Positions 6,434 to 46,347 of a stretch of DNA of 64,000 nucleotides are shown here, in pieces. How positions within the stretch are numbered: the stretch's first letter is position 1; each line of letters opens with the position of its first letter. The position numbers were made by a program, and so were the translations under genes. The stretch is from Edaphobacter paludis (GTDB lineage: Bacteria; Acidobacteriota; Terriglobia; Terriglobales; Acidobacteriaceae), in NCBI RefSeq assembly GCF_039993895.1, contig NZ_CP121194.1, positions 1,302,001 to 1,366,000 of the forward strand. Direction: 5' to 3'. Below the pieces are notes generated by a model. It saw nothing but the letters and a program-made list of their open reading frames with translations. It was not told the origin of the DNA and did no database searches.

Positions 6434-8509
6434 ATGAATACGTTGACTCGACGGTACAGATTTCAAATTTCTTTCCTTGTATTGTTTCTTGCTTTTACCT
6501 GCCTTCGCGGCAACGCTGCCACCTGGCTACCCTTCGGGCCTGATGGCGGGGACGCAAGAACTGTGGTTGCCGATCCACTGGACCCTTCGCATCTATATCT
6601 CGGCGCAGTTAATGGCTGGATTTACGAGTCCCACAACCGTGGTCAAGACTGGAAGCGTCTCGCGTTGGTTAGCGGTCGCGACGGTCTCGCGCTTGATTCC
6701 ATTGTCATCGACAAGGCGAACCCCAAGCACATTCTGGTTGGCGCGTGGATGTTGGGCGGCCGCGATGGCGGTCTTTATATCAGCAATGACGGAGGCGTCA
6801 CCTGGGTCAGCGACAATGAGATGAAGGGGCAATCGATTCGCGCTTTGGCTGCCTCCTCCTCCGATCCCAGGATTCTCGTAGCGGGTACGCTGCTTGGCGT
6901 ATATCGATCGTCCGATAGTGGTCTCCACTGGAAGTTGATCAGCCCCGAAGGCAGCAAGGAGCTGCATGAGGTGGAATCGATCGCCATCGACCCGGTCGAT
7001 CCGCAAATTATTTACGCCGGAACCTGGCATCTGCCGTGGAAGACGACCGACGGTGGCGAACACTGGAAGAACATTAAAGATGGAATCATCGACGACTCCG
7101 ACGTATTTTCGATCATCGTAGACCCAAAGCAACCCATGACTGTCTACGCCAGCGCCTGCTCCGGCATCTACAAGAGCGAAGACCAGGGTCTGAAATTTCA
7201 AAAGATCCAGGGCATTCCCTCGACCGCCCGTCGAACGCGCGTCCTGATGCAGGATCCGCAGCACCTGAACATAGTCTTCGCTGGGACGACGGAGGGCCTA
7301 TTCCGCTCGAGCGATTCGGGCAAGACGTGGCTGCGCACGACCGGACCTGAAGTCATCGTGAACGATGTGTATGTTGATCCAGCCGACGACAACCGTGTCC
7401 TTCTGGCGACCGACCGGGGAGGGGTGCTGGCCAGCAACGACGGCGGCATGAGCTTTCTGCCCTCGAATCGTGGCTTTTCCTCACGCCAGATCGTGGCTTA
7501 TGTGCAGGATGACGAGCACCCGGCGACGATCTACGTCGGTGTTGTGAACGACAAGGAGTGGGGCGGCGTCTTCGTCAGCAACAACGGCGGCCTCACCTGG
7601 GACCAAATCAGTGCGGGCCTGAATGGCAGCGATGTATTCAGCCTCGGCCAGGCCTCCGACGGCACGATTATCGCGGGCACCGGCCACGGCCTCTACAGAC
7701 TTCAAGGACAGCTGTGGAGCCGCGTCGACGATGTGAGTCTCCAAGCGCCACGAGAAGCCAAAGCCAGCCCCGCAGCACGAAGAAGCAAGCCTGGCGCGAA
7801 ACGTGCGAGCAGACCGGCGGTCGCTTTGGTCAGAAACTTTCACTCGGATTCATTGGGTGGCGTCAACGCAATTGCACGGTCGGGCGATACCCTCTACGCT
7901 GCCACAAACGATGGCCTACTGCAGAGCGTGACCGCAGGCCAGAGCTGGCAATTGACTCCTGGCCTGGAGAGGCAGAGCTGGCGGTTTGTCGCCGCGGCAA
8001 GAGCCATGGTGGCAGTCGCAAGCCTCAACAGCGTCGAACTGACGATCGATGGCGGCAAAAAATGGCAGACGGTCAGCCTGCCGGCTGCAGTCACGCAGCT
8101 TGCCGCCGTGGCCGTCGATGGCGCGGGTGGTCTGTGGATTGGGGGCCGCGAAGGGGTCTTCTTTTCTGAAGATGAAGGCGGGACCTGGCATACGTTGAGC
8201 CGCTTCTCCATTCATGATGTAACCAACCTTTTCTTCGACGCACGGGCAGAGCGCATCCTGATTACCGCCAACAACAGAAACACCATCGTCTACGGAGTCC
8301 ATCTGCCCGACAGAAAAGTGCAGTATTGGAATGCCGGCTGGTCGCTCCGTCTGGCCCGCCCCGTTGGAGACCATCTGGTGGGAGCAACCTTGTTTGACGG
8401 CATCGTCGTGCAGCCGCGTATGGTGGCATCGAAGGAAGTATCTACCAACACCGAAGCCTCGGCCACGACGGAGACTTCCACGAAGCCCGCAATCATTGCT
8501 CGACCATAG
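6434..8509 (+). CDS. Secreted BNR/YCF48-type beta-propeller protein
   Basis: The 691-residue product has a signal peptide (TRRYRF then a hydrophobic run ending near CLRGNAA). It then contains about ten Asp-box/BNR repeats of the form S-x-D-x-G-x-T-W, for example SNDGGVTW, SSDSGLHW, TTDGGEHW, SSDSGKTW, SNNGGLTW, TIDGGKKW and SEDEGGTW. Such repeats form seven- to ten-bladed propellers, as in sialidases, sortilin-like proteins and YCF48/HCF136. A low-complexity basic linker (about residues 440-465) divides the propeller into two halves. No sialidase catalytic residues are evident, so it is probably a binding or scaffold protein at the cell surface. mqnE starts 31 bases downstream, possibly co-transcribed by position only. 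Confidence 0.8.
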   Translation: MNTLTRRYRFQISFLVLFLAFTCLRGNAATWLPFGPDGGDARTVVADPLDPSHLYLGAVNGWIYESHNRGQDWKRLALVSGRDGLALDSIVIDKANPKHILVGAWMLGGRDGGLYISNDGGVTWVSDNEMKGQSIRALAASSSDPRILVAGTLLGVYRSSDSGLHWKLISPEGSKELHEVESIAIDPVDPQIIYAGTWHLPWKTTDGGEHWKNIKDGIIDDSDVFSIIVDPKQPMTVYASACSGIYKSEDQGLKFQKIQGIPSTARRTRVLMQDPQHLNIVFAGTTEGLFRSSDSGKTWLRTTGPEVIVNDVYVDPADDNRVLLATDRGGVLASNDGGMSFLPSNRGFSSRQIVAYVQDDEHPATIYVGVVNDKEWGGVFVSNNGGLTWDQISAGLNGSDVFSLGQASDGTIIAGTGHGLYRLQGQLWSRVDDVSLQAPREAKASPAARRSKPGAKRASRPAVALVRNFHSDSLGGVNAIARSGDTLYAATNDGLLQSVTAGQSWQLTPGLERQSWRFVAAARAMVAVASLNSVELTIDGGKKWQTVSLPAAVTQLAAVAVDGAGGLWIGGREGVFFSEDEGGTWHTLSRFSIHDVTNLFFDARAERILITANNRNTIVYGVHLPDRKVQYWNAGWSLRLARPVGDHLVGATLFDGIVVQPRMVASKEVSTNTEASATTETSTKPAIIARP

Positions 8510-24563: not shown

Positions 24564-25559
24564 ATGGAAAGCCCAAAGACATTACTCGAAGCGATTCAAT
24601 ACTTTAGCGATGAGCAGACTTGTATCGACACCGTTGCGATGATGCGCTGGCCGGAGGGTGTGCGGTGTGGTTACTGTGATGCCGACAAACCTTATTACCT
24701 GAAGACTCAGAAGCGGTGGAAGTGCCGCTCCTGCCGCAAACAATTCTCGGTGAAGGTGAACTCAATCTTTGAGGATTCTCCTATCTCGCTTAAGAAATGG
24801 CTCCCCGCGCTCTGGCTCTTGGTCAATTGCAAGAATGGCGTCTCCAGCTATGAGATTGCCAAAGATTTAGGCGTCACTCAGAAGTCGGCATGGTTCATGC
24901 TCCAACGGCTCCGGCTGGCCCTCAGAGCGCGGGATTTCAGCTTCAAGATGGGCAGCGGTGAGGGCGGGGCGGTTGAAGTGGACGAAACCTTCATCGGCGG
25001 CAAACCAGCGAACATGCACAAGGAACGGCGGCTCAGAATCGCCCGTATCCAGAGCCAGCAAGCGCGGACGGTCAATAATTATGGCCGTGCTGGTAAAGCT
25101 GCCATCATGGGCATGTACGACCGTGAGGCTAGGCAGGTGAGGGCAACCGTCGTCCCCAACGTCAAGCGTGAGACTTTACAGAATGAGATTCTGGCCAATA
25201 TCGAACACGGCTCTGTGATCTATAGCGATCAGGCTGTTTCCTATAACGCGCTACACGAGAAGTACGTCCATGAGACCGTGAGCCATGTAGACGCTTACGT
25301 GCGCGGTCAGGTGCATACCAACTGCTTAGAGAACTTCTGGTCGCTCACCAAGCGCACCTTACGCGGAACCTACGTCGCTGTAGAGCCATTCCACCTAGAC
25401 CGCTATGTTGATGAGCAGGTATTCCGTTTCAACCATCGCGCCACCCGCGATAACCCATTGAACGATGCTGACCGCTTCTATATCGCACTCTCTCAGGTCG
25501 CAAACAAGCGTCTCACCTATGCCGAGCTAACCGGCAAGGTGGGTACGACGCAAGCCTAA
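24564..25559 (+). CDS. IS1595-family (ISXO2-like) transposase
   Basis: This 331-residue transposase has an N-terminal zinc ribbon (CGYCDADKPYYLKTQKRWKCRSC, two CxxC pairs). A helix-turn-helix-like part follows (SSYEIAKDLGVTQKSAWFMLQRLR). The ISXO2-type DDE domain then begins with EVDETFIGGK. The next acidic position is probably YSDQAVSYNALH, and the last lies in TNCLENFWSLTKR. Length and order match the family. The ATG at 24564 lies 50 bases inside the left end; an in-frame start at 24528 would lie inside the terminal repeat. The gene appears intact. Confidence 0.93.
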   Translation: MESPKTLLEAIQYFSDEQTCIDTVAMMRWPEGVRCGYCDADKPYYLKTQKRWKCRSCRKQFSVKVNSIFEDSPISLKKWLPALWLLVNCKNGVSSYEIAKDLGVTQKSAWFMLQRLRLALRARDFSFKMGSGEGGAVEVDETFIGGKPANMHKERRLRIARIQSQQARTVNNYGRAGKAAIMGMYDREARQVRATVVPNVKRETLQNEILANIEHGSVIYSDQAVSYNALHEKYVHETVSHVDAYVRGQVHTNCLENFWSLTKRTLRGTYVAVEPFHLDRYVDEQVFRFNHRATRDNPLNDADRFYIALSQVANKRLTYAELTGKVGTTQA

Positions 25560-25738
25560 CCCTTACTTTGCAAAGCGCGGCCCGAAGCCGAAGATTTAGG
25601 CTTGGGGCCTTTGGGTTGGCGCACGGATTCGATGGCCGATTGGTCGTGGAGCATGGCCGTCAATTCCGGCTTCGTCACCGTCATCACTGAACGTAAGGCG
25701 TCGTTGAATCTCGCCATTTCTGGCGTGGAGGATTTCAT
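25556..25738 (-). CDS. Small basic IS1595 passenger protein, 60 aa
   Basis: The frame runs against the transposase gene and overlaps its stop by 4 bases. The protein has MARFNDALRSVMTVTKPEL near its start and a Lys/Pro/Ser-rich tail (PKGPKPKSS). A similar F-x-x-x-L-R motif followed by K and EL occurs in the 63-residue passenger of the second element at 44590. No clear ribosome-binding site is seen. Function is unknown; a small DNA-binding or accessory role is a guess. Confidence 0.5.
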   Translation of the reverse strand: MKSSTPEMARFNDALRSVMTVTKPELTAMLHDQSAIESVRQPKGPKPKSSASGRALQSKG

Positions 25739-25778
25739 GCGGCTATGATAGCGCAATCCTGAAAGGGAGGTCTCTTGA

Positions 25779-26186: not shown

Positions 26187-26432
26187 TTAATCCTCTGTCT
26201 GCCGTTTGAATACTGCGTGATACATCCACGGATTCGCAGAATCTATCCCTTTCCACTTCTGCGCCATGGGTAGCGCGGGCAGAAACGAAACCAGCTCCCA
26301 TCCATCCGCACCCATCTCCTTTAGGTGCGATTGAATAATTTCGCCGCTGGGAGGAGAATCTTCGAGATCCCCCTCGAACGGAACCTCATATTCCGTGTTA
26401 ATCGTGATAACGCTGTATTCCCACTTAACCAC
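26187..26432 (-). CDS. DUF4177-like small protein, 81 aa
   Basis: The protein begins VKWEYSVITINTEYE and contains IQSHLKEMGADGWELVSFLPA, the pattern of DUF4177-type proteins (WEY start, then GxxGWELVS), and ends with a beta-rich segment (MYHAVFKRQTED). The start is GTG, fixed by AGGAGG six bases upstream. It lies 29 bases after the HEPN-like gene on the same strand, so the two are probably co-transcribed. The molecular function of the family is unknown. It is a passenger of the IS1595 element. Confidence 0.7.
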   Translation of the reverse strand: MVKWEYSVITINTEYEVPFEGDLEDSPPSGEIIQSHLKEMGADGWELVSFLPALPMAQKWKGIDSANPWMYHAVFKRQTED

Positions 26433-44116: not shown

Positions 44117-44144
44117 ATTGTAGCGAATAAAAAGCGAATTGCAA
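44117..44144 (-). promoter_or_regulatory. lexA core promoter, abutting a transposon
   Basis: On the minus strand TTGCAA (44139-44144) and TACAAT (44117-44122) are separated by 16 bases. The predicted start of transcription falls at or within a base or two of the lexA ATG, with no ribosome-binding site visible, suggesting a leaderless mRNA. The target duplication of the IS1595 element begins immediately upstream of the -35 box. Confidence 0.55.
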
Positions 44145-44152
44145 TACCTTTA

Positions 44153-44182
44153 AATGATTATCCCTTTGACTCACGTTGAGCG
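44153..44182 (+). repeat. Left terminal inverted repeat of IS1595 element 2
   Basis: The end begins AATGATTATCCC then TTTGACTCACGTTGAGCG. It matches the reverse complement of 46281-46310 at 28 of 30 positions. TTTGACT stands at the same offset (13-19) as in element 1. Confidence 0.93.
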
Positions 44183-44260
44183 GGTTCTCACTAAACAAGT
44201 AGAAATAGTCTTGACACGGAAAGGCTTCATCCACTGTGTCAACTTATTTTTCGACTGTAA

Positions 44261-44572
44261 TTATCCCTGCAAAGGGTCATTTAGGAACGGTGTCGGTTCC
44301 AAGTCCGACAAACCCACAAATTCGACATTCTCCGTTGTTACGTGGGTGGTCGAACCGCATGTTGAGCCATCATCGCAAAGATAGGGGCAGGTTTGGAAAC
44401 CCCCTAGTTTTTGTTCCTGTTCTAGTTTGGTTCGCAACTCTTCGATTTGAGCGTCGGCGGGGAGATCCACGAAGTCAACTTGGAGCATTCTTCCGCAGTT
44501 CCAGCACTTTACTCCGTAGACACGCTTTTCGAGTTTATCGGTGGGGATTCGAGACTGGACTGATTGGCTCAT
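44261..44572 (-). CDS. Zinc-ribbon passenger protein, 103 aa
   Basis: The cytoplasmic protein has a first CxxC pair in VKCWNCGRML and a second Cys cluster in TCPYLCDDGSTCGSTTH, which could bind one or two zinc ions. The stretch ADAQIEELRTKLEQEQKL between them is probably helical. No family is recognised. It is divergent from the small basic gene at 44590 with only 17 bases between the start codons. It lies inside the IS1595 element and has lower GC than chromosomal neighbours. A DNA-binding or adaptor role is possible but unproven. Confidence 0.6.
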   Translation of the reverse strand: MSQSVQSRIPTDKLEKRVYGVKCWNCGRMLQVDFVDLPADAQIEELRTKLEQEQKLGGFQTCPYLCDDGSTCGSTTHVTTENVEFVGLSDLEPTPFLNDPLQG

Positions 44573-44589
44573 ACGCGGAAGAATAACGC

Positions 44590-44781
44590 ATGGAAGACGA
44601 AACTCTCTACGATAAAGATAAATTTGACGCTGTTCTACGCCGCATGGTGAACATGAAACCCATGACGGTCAAGGAACTAAGCGCAAAGCTAAAGGTCGAG
44701 AAAGCGGCCAAAGCCACCAAAGAAGCGGAAGCCTTGAGAGCAAAAATAGCTGAAAGACGTGTCCAGAAAATGGACAAATAG
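44590..44781 (+). CDS. Small basic passenger protein, 63 aa
   Basis: The protein has DKFDAVLRRMVNMKPMTVKEL, then a Lys/Ala/Glu-rich helix (LKVEKAAKATKEAEALRAKI) with coiled-coil character. The F-x-x-x-L-R motif followed by K and EL resembles the 60-residue passenger in the first IS1595 element (25556-25738). The ribosome-binding site is weak (GGAAGA about 7 bases before the ATG). Function is unknown. The following 44782-45074 contains one further candidate frame on the minus strand. Confidence 0.5.
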   Translation: MEDETLYDKDKFDAVLRRMVNMKPMTVKELSAKLKVEKAAKATKEAEALRAKIAERRVQKMDK

Positions 44782-44932
44782 GTTCTGAGAATAGACACAA
44801 TCCGGTACCTATTCCTTTGCGCGGGAACCACCCACGGCAGCGATTCAACACAGCAGGTCTACATTGCCTTACGGCTTTTTAGTTTTCACCCAATCTGAGT
44901 AATCCAACCCAGACCAGAAGGATGCGTCATCA

Positions 44933-45067
44933 CTAGTAAATAACGGCTTTGTAGTCAGCCTCTCGCTGTAGAGGAAGGGTAGGCCCCGTGACTACTTTGC
45001 ACTGCGTGGTGCCGGGACCGAGCAAAAATTTGGCCGATAAAGCCTCCAATCCGCCGTTTCCGGTCAC
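44933..45067 (-). CDS. Possible small protein, 44 aa, inside IS1595 element 2
   Basis: A GTG-started minus-strand frame encodes TGNGGLEALSAKFLLGPGTTQ and ends in PLQREADYKAVIY. It begins about 8 bases after the transposase stop on the same strand. Composition looks protein-like, but there is no ribosome-binding site and no family. It may be chance or a decayed passenger. Confidence 0.25.
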   Translation of the reverse strand: MTGNGGLEALSAKFLLGPGTTQCKVVTGPTLPLQREADYKAVIY

Positions 45068-45074
45068 CCGCAGT

Positions 45075-45986
45075 CTAGAACGTCAGATCCTTATAGGGCA
45101 ATGGCTTTTTGTTGAGCATGTTGGTCAATGCCATATCGAATAGCCAAGGCTGCATCTTGCGGCGATTGTATCTCCAACAAAATTCACCCAGGTAACGATC
45201 CAGATGGTCGGCACTGAGTTTGTGATAGTTGCCGACGATACCCCGTTTGAAGAGTGAAAAGGCGTTCTCGACTGTCTGTGTTCGCGTCCAGTTTTTATCT
45301 TTCAATTCTTCTGCATGGTTGCCGCGTTCGTGTTTTGCTCTGGGAATAGCGCCTTTGTAGAGTTGGTTGCCGTCGGTCACGATCTTTGGGGTTTCAGGAT
45401 CAATTTTGGTGTTTACCGTTTCCCGAATGTTTTCCAATGACGCCCGATTGACGCGCTGCATGTGAATCTGGCCATCGCGTTCAGCCAACCCGAGCACTAC
45501 CGCTTTCGCGTTCTTACCTGCTTTCACGCCGTGTAGCCGTTTGCGGCCGCCAACATACATCTCATCCATTTCAACAGTTGTAGCTGGTCCGCCAACCTTG
45601 AAGCTAGGATCTTCCTGCATGGCTTCTCTGATGCGATGACATACATACCAAGCGGTCTTGTAGCTCATCGGAACATGACGCCGAACCTGATTAGCTGAAA
45701 TGCCTTTCTTCCCCTCCACCATGAGGCAAAGCACGGCAAACCATTTCGTTAGTGGCAGGTGAGAGTCATGAAATAGCGTATTGGCTGTTGCACTGAATTG
45801 CAGCCCACACTCCGCACATTGGAAGAGTTTGCGCGGTTTACCAGTCTTTCCCTTAGCTTCGATCAGCCAGCAACGGTCATGGTCACAAGCTATGCACCGA
45901 ACCCCATGAGGCCAGCGCGTCTTTATCAAGTGCAACAGCGCCATATCTTCATTGGGGAATTTCTTAGCCAGAGAGTAGAGATTCAT
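45075..45986 (-). CDS. IS1595-family (ISXO2-like) transposase
   Basis: The 303-residue transposase has an N-terminal zinc ribbon (VRCIACDHDRCWL, then LFQCAECGLQF), a helical part (ISANQVRRHVPMSYKTAWYVCHRIR) and the ISXO2-type catalytic domain starting at VEMDEMYVGGRKR. Later acidic positions are probably VTDGNQLY and TVENAFSLFKRG. It differs clearly from the transposase at 24564, so the elements belong to different subgroups. The frame is intact. An 80-residue gene ends 11 bases upstream on the same strand, so the two are likely co-transcribed. Confidence 0.93.
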   Translation of the reverse strand: MNLYSLAKKFPNEDMALLHLIKTRWPHGVRCIACDHDRCWLIEAKGKTGKPRKLFQCAECGLQFSATANTLFHDSHLPLTKWFAVLCLMVEGKKGISANQVRRHVPMSYKTAWYVCHRIREAMQEDPSFKVGGPATTVEMDEMYVGGRKRLHGVKAGKNAKAVVLGLAERDGQIHMQRVNRASLENIRETVNTKIDPETPKIVTDGNQLYKGAIPRAKHERGNHAEELKDKNWTRTQTVENAFSLFKRGIVGNYHKLSADHLDRYLGEFCWRYNRRKMQPWLFDMALTNMLNKKPLPYKDLTF

Positions 45987-45997
45987 GAATTGCCTTC

Positions 45998-46240
45998 CTA
46001 TTTCGCCTGCGTTGCTTGAGAAAATGTCTCGGATGTCTCTTGAGGATCGGGAACGAGTACAACATGCTTGGACGCTCGCAGCCTCTCCAGTTCCGCCAGA
46101 TATAACTTGTCAAACTCAGGTGAAATGCGCGAGAGAGCTATTCGGGTCGCGTGAGCAACGTCAAAAGCAAGTTCCGCGAAGGCTATCGGTGTCAGTGCTT
46201 GTTCTTTCATTGAAGCGATTAGTTGGTCTATTTCGTTCAT
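45998..46240 (-). CDS. Hypothetical passenger protein, 80 aa
   Basis: The protein is helical and acidic to neutral (EIDQLIASMKEQALTPIAFAEL and EFDKLYLAELERLRASKH are the visible helices), with a C-terminal tail rich in Thr/Gln. No family is recognised. It is the first gene behind the right inverted repeat and is followed 11 bases later by the transposase, suggesting joint expression and a role in transposition or its control. That is inference from position. Confidence 0.55.
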   Translation of the reverse strand: MNEIDQLIASMKEQALTPIAFAELAFDVAHATRIALSRISPEFDKLYLAELERLRASKHVVLVPDPQETSETFSQATQAK

Positions 46241-46280
46241 GGCTAAAACTCTTTCTAATTACCGAACCATAATGCTCTTT

Positions 46281-46310
46281 CACTCAACATGAGTCAAAGG
46301 GATAATCATT
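46281..46310 (-). repeat. Right terminal inverted repeat of IS1595 element 2
   Basis: On the minus strand it reads AATGATTATCCC then TTTGACTCATGTTGAGTG. The duplicated target TACCTTTA follows. Confidence 0.93.
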
Positions 46311-46347
46311 TACCTTTATTAGTTTCTCGTTTTTGCAGGTACCAAAG

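Follow-up and report, generated by a model that had tools for sequence, protein, structure and literature searches.

A compact IS1595-family cargo element beside lexA in Edaphobacter paludis, with a candidate mimic of the transposase tail and a recurrent landing position

The window that we analysed, a stretch of 64,000 nucleotides from Edaphobacter paludis (RefSeq assembly GCF_039993895.1, contig NZ_CP121194.1, positions 1,302,001 to 1,366,000), contains an element of the IS1595 family of insertion sequences (IS) next to a gene that we take to be lexA; this name, like those of mraZ and of the response regulator used below, was assigned by reading the sequence. The element, called element 2 here, holds an intact transposase open reading frame (ORF) and the three further genes listed in the initial annotation of this stretch, for a zinc-ribbon-like protein, a small basic protein and a protein of 80 amino acids (aa) (Table 1). 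The zinc-ribbon-like gene and the small basic gene are divergent, with 17 bp separating their start codons, and the GC content of the element is 49% against 59% in the surroundings. The two ends agree at 27 of their first 28 positions and at 28 of the first 30, the latter being the figure first reported for them; the 29/30 returned by a repeat finder comes from a start set two duplicated bases further outward. The flanking duplication TACCTTTA, also noticed earlier, is exact over 8 bp, and such a duplication immediately outside matching ends around an IS1595 transposase is beyond chance. The transposase matches the Pfam family PF12762 (2.8e-27, 96 bits, cut-off 27) and NF033547 (1.6e-52, 178.5 bits, cut-off 75), and its N-terminal part the IS1595 zinc ribbon PF12760 (2e-9, 37.7 bits, cut-off 25.4). 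Transposase, zinc ribbon, short inverted ends and 8-bp duplication together place the element firmly in the IS1595 family.

Table 1. Features of element 2, its lexA side and element 1, in positions of the window.
Feature	Coordinates	Strand	Remarks
IS1595-family cargo element (element 2), 2,158 bp	44153..46310		inverted ends and exact 8-bp duplication; empty site in relatives
Target-site duplication, copy adjoining lexA	44145..44152		TACCTTTA
Target-site duplication, other copy	46311..46318		TACCTTTA
Terminal inverted repeat, far side from transposase	44153..44180		
Terminal inverted repeat, transposase side	46283..46310		contains inward TTGACT (-35-like hexamer)
IS1595-family transposase, 303 aa	45075..45986	-	zinc ribbon and DDE domain
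Transposase C-terminal tail, residues 279-303	45078..45152	-	predicted structure: helix 279-292, loop, short helix 298-301
Small basic protein, candidate tail mimic, 63 aa	44590..44781	+	antiparallel to transposase
Small zinc-ribbon-like protein, 103 aa	44261..44572	-	cargo
80-aa helical protein	45998..46240	-	immediately upstream of transposase
lexA, 201 aa	43505..44110	-	start codon 34 bp from the target duplication of the element
TTCGC-N6-TTCGC repeat TTCGCTTTTTATTCGC, lexA promoter	44123..44138	-	6 bp outside the duplication; putative LexA operator
Element 1 transposase	24564..25556	+	
Element 1 small convergent protein	25556..25756	-	
DUF4177 protein near element 1	26187..26432	-	

Comparison with relatives of the genus shows that element 2 transposed as one unit, landing between lexA and the response regulator gene and duplicating 8 bp. 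A lexA search of 41 genomes of the genus gave 30 loci that we read, one of them the window's own. The response regulator was located nearby at 22 of them, with start codons 213-425 bp apart in 18 and about 1.32 kb apart in 4; at the remaining 8, among them the window's own, it was not found within the stretch fetched. When the element and one duplicate are removed, the spacing between the start codons of lexA and the response regulator becomes 213 bp, equal to that of the relative G033, with which the joined flanks of the window align across the junction (82% over 474 columns, 26 gaps). The empty site in relatives is evidence of past movement only.

The genome consists of one contig of 4.04 Mb, where a 21-base end piece, with 3 mismatches allowed, occurs solely at the two ends of element 2. 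A genome-wide search for the ends, as the initial annotation had proposed, thus returned the element once; related elements are nonetheless common, and with the site empty elsewhere we do not see a lone element under strict vertical conservation. A second relative lies in the same genome (L042, G000:C1:2085985), with a transposase 67% identical, its own ends and the duplication ACCTTAAG, and of 398 family genomes 78, counting the own one, hold transposase relatives at E<=1e-60. Among the 78 transposase loci that we read, 38 elements were delimited automatically through their ends and an exact 8-bp duplication and five more separately (in four the duplication is exact over 8 bp, while L054 has a 9-bp repeat), the delimitation reaching up to about 5 kb beyond the transposase. 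These 43 elements measure 1,579-4,541 bp (median 2,476), and as the transposase takes about 0.9 kb, every one of them has room for additional genes.

Passenger trading had been proposed from two cargo-bearing elements lying 20 kb apart. Two such neighbours would not reveal it, because their transposases, rightly described as distant, are only 33% identical; the support comes from the 43 delimited relatives. Indeed, their cargo ORFs of at least 60 aa, compared by blastp at 1e-5, form 11 small groups, of which one is confined to a single element, and are otherwise unshared, counts that are rough given the greedy and mechanical choice of ORFs. On this comparison of internal genes passenger turnover in the lineage of element 2 is real, and, as in a transporter IS, the genes inside the ends vary between relatives. 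The cargo also appears partly inherited, given genes common to element 2 and L042, which by eye resemble each other in the zinc-ribbon-like and small-protein genes; for the zinc-ribbon-like stretch there is also a blast link between the two, through ORFs on its opposite strand.

The small basic protein, which the initial annotation had counted as cargo, behaves otherwise. With a profile threshold of E<1e-4 it has a relative in 56 of the 78 transposase loci, or 50 of 72 without the six loci (L067, L068, L069, L074, L078, L079; all positive) that were recruited by the small-protein search. In 55 of the 56 its gene lies opposite to and downstream of the transposase, and it is found inside the ends of 33 of the 43 delimited elements, none of them recruited through it. 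The two stop codons (n=55) are separated by at most 5 bp in 22 cases, 20 of which overlap by 19-46 bp, by 6-600 bp in 17 and by more in 16. On a tree of 73 transposases (5 of the 78 were dropped by frame or length filters, and 4 rows were recruited through the small protein) the partner gene is present in 52 rows and absent from 21. Sixteen of these absences fall together in a single clade (100/100), where 13 rows have either a delimited element or more than 1.5 kb read downstream; the other five are scattered on the tree, and four of these have less than 1.5 kb of downstream sequence read. The ratio of nonsynonymous to synonymous changes (pN/pS) in the small-protein frame is 0.41 (51 sequences), with 49% of changes at third and 20% at second positions, and ranges in the other frames from 0.58 (mirror antisense) to 1.76; by this pattern the frame is constrained as coding sequence. 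A search of 396 genomes of the phylum gave 18 matches at E<=0.01; 14 have an IS1595 transposase next to them, seed elements among these, and the other four include both weak matches outside the family. Conserved presence, orientation and location inside the ends lead us to reject the view of this gene as mere cargo; it is a conserved core gene of the lineage.

What the small protein resembles is the C-terminal tail of the transposase. The transposase model has a mean predicted local distance difference test score (pLDDT) of 90.4, with block means of 92-96 as far as residue 300, and folds as an RNase H-like integrase (best match 6rwl, Z 12.7, root-mean-square deviation 3.5 over 128 residues). 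The integrase-like core alone was matched in this fold search; the match covers model residues 133-282, so that the tail lies just past the shared core. In a profile-profile comparison (hhalign, region not preset) the small protein FDAVLRRMVNMKPMTVKEL was aligned onto the transposase tail FDMALTNMLNKKPLPYKDL with a score of 30.3 (E 2e-4, single comparison). With the core columns alone the score is 30.0 (7e-5); reversing their order lowers it to 12.5, and 200 column shuffles gave at most 15.9. The reverse search, in which 11,926 six-frame fragments from the 78 loci were searched with a profile built from the final 26 residues of the transposase, gave as its first 40 matches outside transposase frames 33 small-protein ORFs, 4 transposase pieces and 3 others, and recovered 54 of the 56 small-protein ORFs among the 249 matches listed. 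The predicted structure of the small protein (mean pLDDT 85.9, predicted template modelling score 0.44) consists of helix 9-21, a loop and helix 27-61, and its loop borders (21/27) correspond to those of the transposase (292/298) at a constant offset of 271 residues, with the start of the first helix one residue apart. The windows used for tail-mimic covariation were anchored on a shared F and P, which makes the register control of that comparison circular, and the claim of likeness therefore rests on the profile comparison and the reverse tail search. On these two, the helix-loop-helix of the small protein is shown to resemble the transposase tail, and we refer to it below as the tail mimic.

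Twenty-three members of the small-protein group compared with Pfam, NCBIfam and PHROGs gave no weighty family match (best single-member E-values 0.0053, 0.0069 and 0.03, respectively, each to another family), and no sequence match was found among solved structures. No relative was matched on plasmids, a weak test with such very short queries. Plasmid records with an IS1595 match numbered 338, of which 21 were fetched, 10 scanned for tail-like ORFs and 11 read from their annotation; a loosely similar motif occurs in 2 of the 10 scanned (Mesorhizobium, Methylobacterium). In L048 (oriented locus 6908-7867, minus strand) the tail-mimic motif forms the C-terminal part of a 311-aa protein, whose start looks by eye like a proteasome-type hydrolase and for which no Pfam family was named.

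The second recurrent feature is the landing site. The duplication of element 2 abuts the -35-like hexamer of the lexA promoter, and in another species of the genus (L059, G588) an element lies at the identical nucleotide of lexA in the same orientation, with the different duplication GAAGCTTC. A lexA search over the 78 loci added L035 and L111, outside the genus and in reverse orientation, with their ends 8+6 bp from the repeat TTCGC-N6-TTCGC; L044 and L049 are likewise placed beside mraZ, with different duplications. We then scored the offset of this repeat in 87 outward flanks of 45 elements (the 43 delimited ones, L035 and L111). The perfect repeat occurs in 6 of the 45, in all six at offset 6 and in none at any other offset from 0 to 28, and at 0 of 28,779 background positions. 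Four of the six are at the lexA promoter, the window's included, with different flanking 8-mers, and two at the mraZ promoter; with one mismatch allowed, a seventh (L124) is found at offset 6. Element pairs at one locus are related elements, which limits these counts. The exact form TTCGCTTTNNNTTCGC is present only twice in the own genome, once in the lexA promoter and once in that of mraZ. Chance does not account for the fixed offset, kept with unrelated 8-mers and in either orientation. The landing site is, from these flank comparisons, non-random, and a shared position is used by a few relatives in other genomes.

The LexA box of the Alphaproteobacteria type is GTTC-N7-GTTC, and TTCGC-N6-TTCGC, a direct repeat with an 11-bp period, fits it; the repeat is plausibly a LexA operator. 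In the literature on LexA motifs, mainly the freely accessible part, we did not find this landing site described. Another landing locus is shared by L094, L103, L107 and L123 (L091 partly), beside a promoter-like outward sequence and with L103 inverted; L113 and L122 also have a common flank.

Taken together, element 2 is a compact IS1595 cargo transposon, or transporter IS, that landed 6 bp from the repeat of the lexA promoter. Its lineage mostly retains a core of two parts, the DDE transposase and the convergent small protein, while the other genes change. In the whole reading, with the inferences that follow, our confidence is little more than even. We infer that the transposase uses its tail for interaction: while the DNA complex is assembled, the tail would pack against the subunit it belongs to or against a neighbouring one. 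Our best guess from the likeness is that the small protein is a regulator, probably an inhibitor: it would act through the tail-holding groove, more probably as a damper than a helper, and by occupying this groove it would damp transposition as copies and mimic accumulate. The inhibitor of Tn5 (Inh) is made from the transposase gene itself and forms mixed complexes. If our reading is right, the damping would be analogous, in that a protein with the C-terminal interaction part of a transposase spoils the complex; here, in contrast, a separate opposite-strand gene holds the tail motif alone, and we do not assign its product to any known class of inhibitors. The transposition complex may further recognise the LexA operator repeat, or LexA bound there, and insertion at this place would spare lexA's own promoter and bring an SOS-controlled promoter next to one of the element's ends. 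The full proposal, in which the complex recognises LexA on the lexA and mraZ operators and inserts at the 6-bp offset while the tail mimic tunes assembly, is tentative, and we consider it rather unlikely to hold in all its parts.

Several observations count against this picture. On the side of the landing site, 38 of the 45 elements lie away from the repeat. L035 and L111 were included for their lexA position and had their ends set from one side, and without them 4 perfect cases and L124 are left among 43 elements. The one-mismatch form also gives one match at offset 17, and the repeat was first noticed in these very flanks, which makes formal P values too small. A looser repeat occurs at 9 places in the own genome, some inside genes, about the level of chance; a T-rich spacer or the promoter must consequently matter, the bare repeat being insufficient. 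The operator assignment draws on the lexA-promoter position and on the Alphaproteobacteria-type box. On the side of the mimic, the clade of 16 transposases without the partner gene implies that transposition does not need it everywhere, and the mirror antisense frame of the gene has a pN/pS of 0.58. The E-values of the tail search are modest, with 6 small-protein ORFs below 0.01 (the window's at 0.0026), and the tail-mimic likeness within elements is not above that between elements (p 0.17, n=46). Finally, in the second clade, that of element 1, the small convergent protein is not significantly like the tail of its own transposase, its score being reached by 9 of 200 shuffles.

Element 1 had been described as a first intact element; a search around its transposase for matching ends flanked by an 8-bp duplication found none. 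The small convergent gene is as constant a partner in this clade as the small basic one in the first, 18 of 19 matches in 200 genomes of the family lying beside an IS1595 transposase, and the small-protein profiles of the two clades match with E 0.0013 (one comparison). The tail profile of this second clade does not single out its small convergent gene. Tail mimicry in the second clade is unsupported by both the shuffles and this search, and with a likeness that is marginal we claim it for the first clade alone. The DUF4177 protein near element 1 (1.9e-6) has by eye a similar-looking small counterpart in L057.

Among the other explanations, the one that survives best concerns the sense in which the mimic acts. 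It may be a positive cofactor, or a ligand of the tail's host partner that recruits a host factor or target, rather than an inhibitor. This is possible, if on the unlikely side: the mimic is retained in nearly all elements of its clades, as a pure inhibitor need not be, and a long, Lys- and Arg-rich helix is predicted for its C-terminal half, but a sister clade does without any copy of it.

Concerning the landing site, element 2 could be a plain IS1595 element with swapped passengers, the shared sites reflecting a taste for AT-rich promoter edges. The target duplications are indeed 63% AT, and 11 of 86 flanks have an outward TTGAC no more than 20 bp away (background 1.7%; shared loci not collapsed), so that promoters generally may attract insertions. 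A general taste would not, however, fix the offset to the base in six of six perfect cases with different 8-mers and in both orientations, and we regard this explanation as doubtful.

An ordinary passenger, or an antitoxin-like gene, whose tail likeness is a chance amphipathic helix followed by Pro is an improbable account of the small protein. It is short, and Pfam, NCBIfam and PHROGs assign it no role, but both directions of profile comparison and the shuffles oppose a chance likeness, and its position and orientation stay constant while other cargo varies. That the same-locus insertions are one old inherited insertion, since diverged, would suit the single genus and shared orientation of element 2 and L059 and the near-identical transposases of L044 and L049, yet it is very improbable, as the duplicates of these four are identical within each element and wholly different between the members of each pair, L035 and L111 are inverted at lexA, and 18 of the 29 other lexA loci read in the genus have a short spacing with no space for an element.

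The remaining cargo is varied. The 103-aa zinc-ribbon-like protein matched no Pfam family, and the 80-aa protein had no relative among 298 other genomes of the class searched. A small upstream ORF ending near the transposase start is present in 37 of the 78 loci; few of these are mutually similar, and a number of them are certainly spurious. Among the cargo that could be named are SieB (L042), an aspartyl-protease-like protein (L046), Trypsin_2 (L061 and one more), proteasome-like proteins, Abi_2 (L103), PD-Lambda-2_C (L113), Gp49 and helix-turn-helix proteins. Abi_2, PD-Lambda-2_C and SieB are clear single cases of defence genes. An enrichment of the cargo in defence genes is not supported by its control: at E<=1e-3, PADLOC families number 19 in 53 of the 95 cargo ORFs of at least 85 aa, against 30 in 53 ORFs drawn from 112 in the flanks of loci L042-L061. 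The strongest cargo matches, AbiD (1.1e-74) and PD-Lambda-2_C (2.1e-49), exceed the strongest flank match (6.7e-27). Small zinc-ribbon-like ORFs number 10 in 78.0 kb of element against 9 in 214.1 kb of flank (binomial p 0.014), a weak signal from a pattern that failed on the window's own protein and counted some doubtful ORFs. The 4.1-kb IS1595 element of L113 carries a PD-Lambda-2-like defence component and a cll-like protein, and the proteasome-like proteins are cargo in the clade without the partner gene. On Roseomonas and Methylobacterium plasmids (L084, L086) a hypothetical gene, a gene of PIN/VapC type and one for a protein of 61-62 aa come after an IS1595 transposase, an arrangement that may represent a comparable cargo element in Alphaproteobacteria.

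The transposase-side end probably supplies the -35 box of the transposase promoter. An inward TTGAC stands at the same place of this end in 43 of 43 delimited elements (TTGACA in 27) and in 30 of 43 far ends, against a rate inside the elements of 1% per 13-base window. The promoter scan of element 2 found 2 against 2.1 expected, promoter and terminator counts were not above those of shuffles, and no Rfam family was matched.

Tn7 inserts into attTn7 at a fixed offset from a recognised chromosomal sequence. The lineage of element 2 also keeps a fixed offset from a chromosomal sequence, with the difference that only 7 of the 45 elements (one with a mismatch) are at the repeat and that no dedicated targeting gene is known in this lineage. 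In the mainly freely accessible literature we found no description of a convergent accessory gene, a tail mimic or passenger genes in IS1595. The transporter IS MTnSag1 and tISCpe8, in the passages of PMC5704250 that treat them, have 25-bp inverted ends, 8-bp duplications and extra genes inside; tISCpe8 is a lincomycin resistance element, according to a title in the reference list of that paper. They share with element 2 the IS1595-type transposase, inverted ends, 8-bp duplications and passenger genes, and the same passages contain no mention of a conserved convergent tail-mimic gene or of landing at TTCGC-N6-TTCGC. Single-gene IS1595 insertion sequences of Xanthomonas and Ralstonia, in the part of PMC11092175 that describes them, are about 1000 bp long with one ORF. 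The transposase family is common to both, and the elements delimited here are longer, all at least 1.58 kb.

In conclusion, a separate gene that copies the transposase tail would give a minimal handle on the assembly and restraint of an IS1595 transposase, and base-precise, repeated landing at the lexA promoter would make repressor-guided targeting testable in an element with one transposase. Mimic and landing site together would help to explain how elements of 1.6-4.5 kb exchange single genes, defence genes in individual cases, and how they land beside a promoter without breaking it. If steering by the SOS regulator were true, the mobility of these elements and the exchange of their cargo would be tied to the DNA-damage state of the host.

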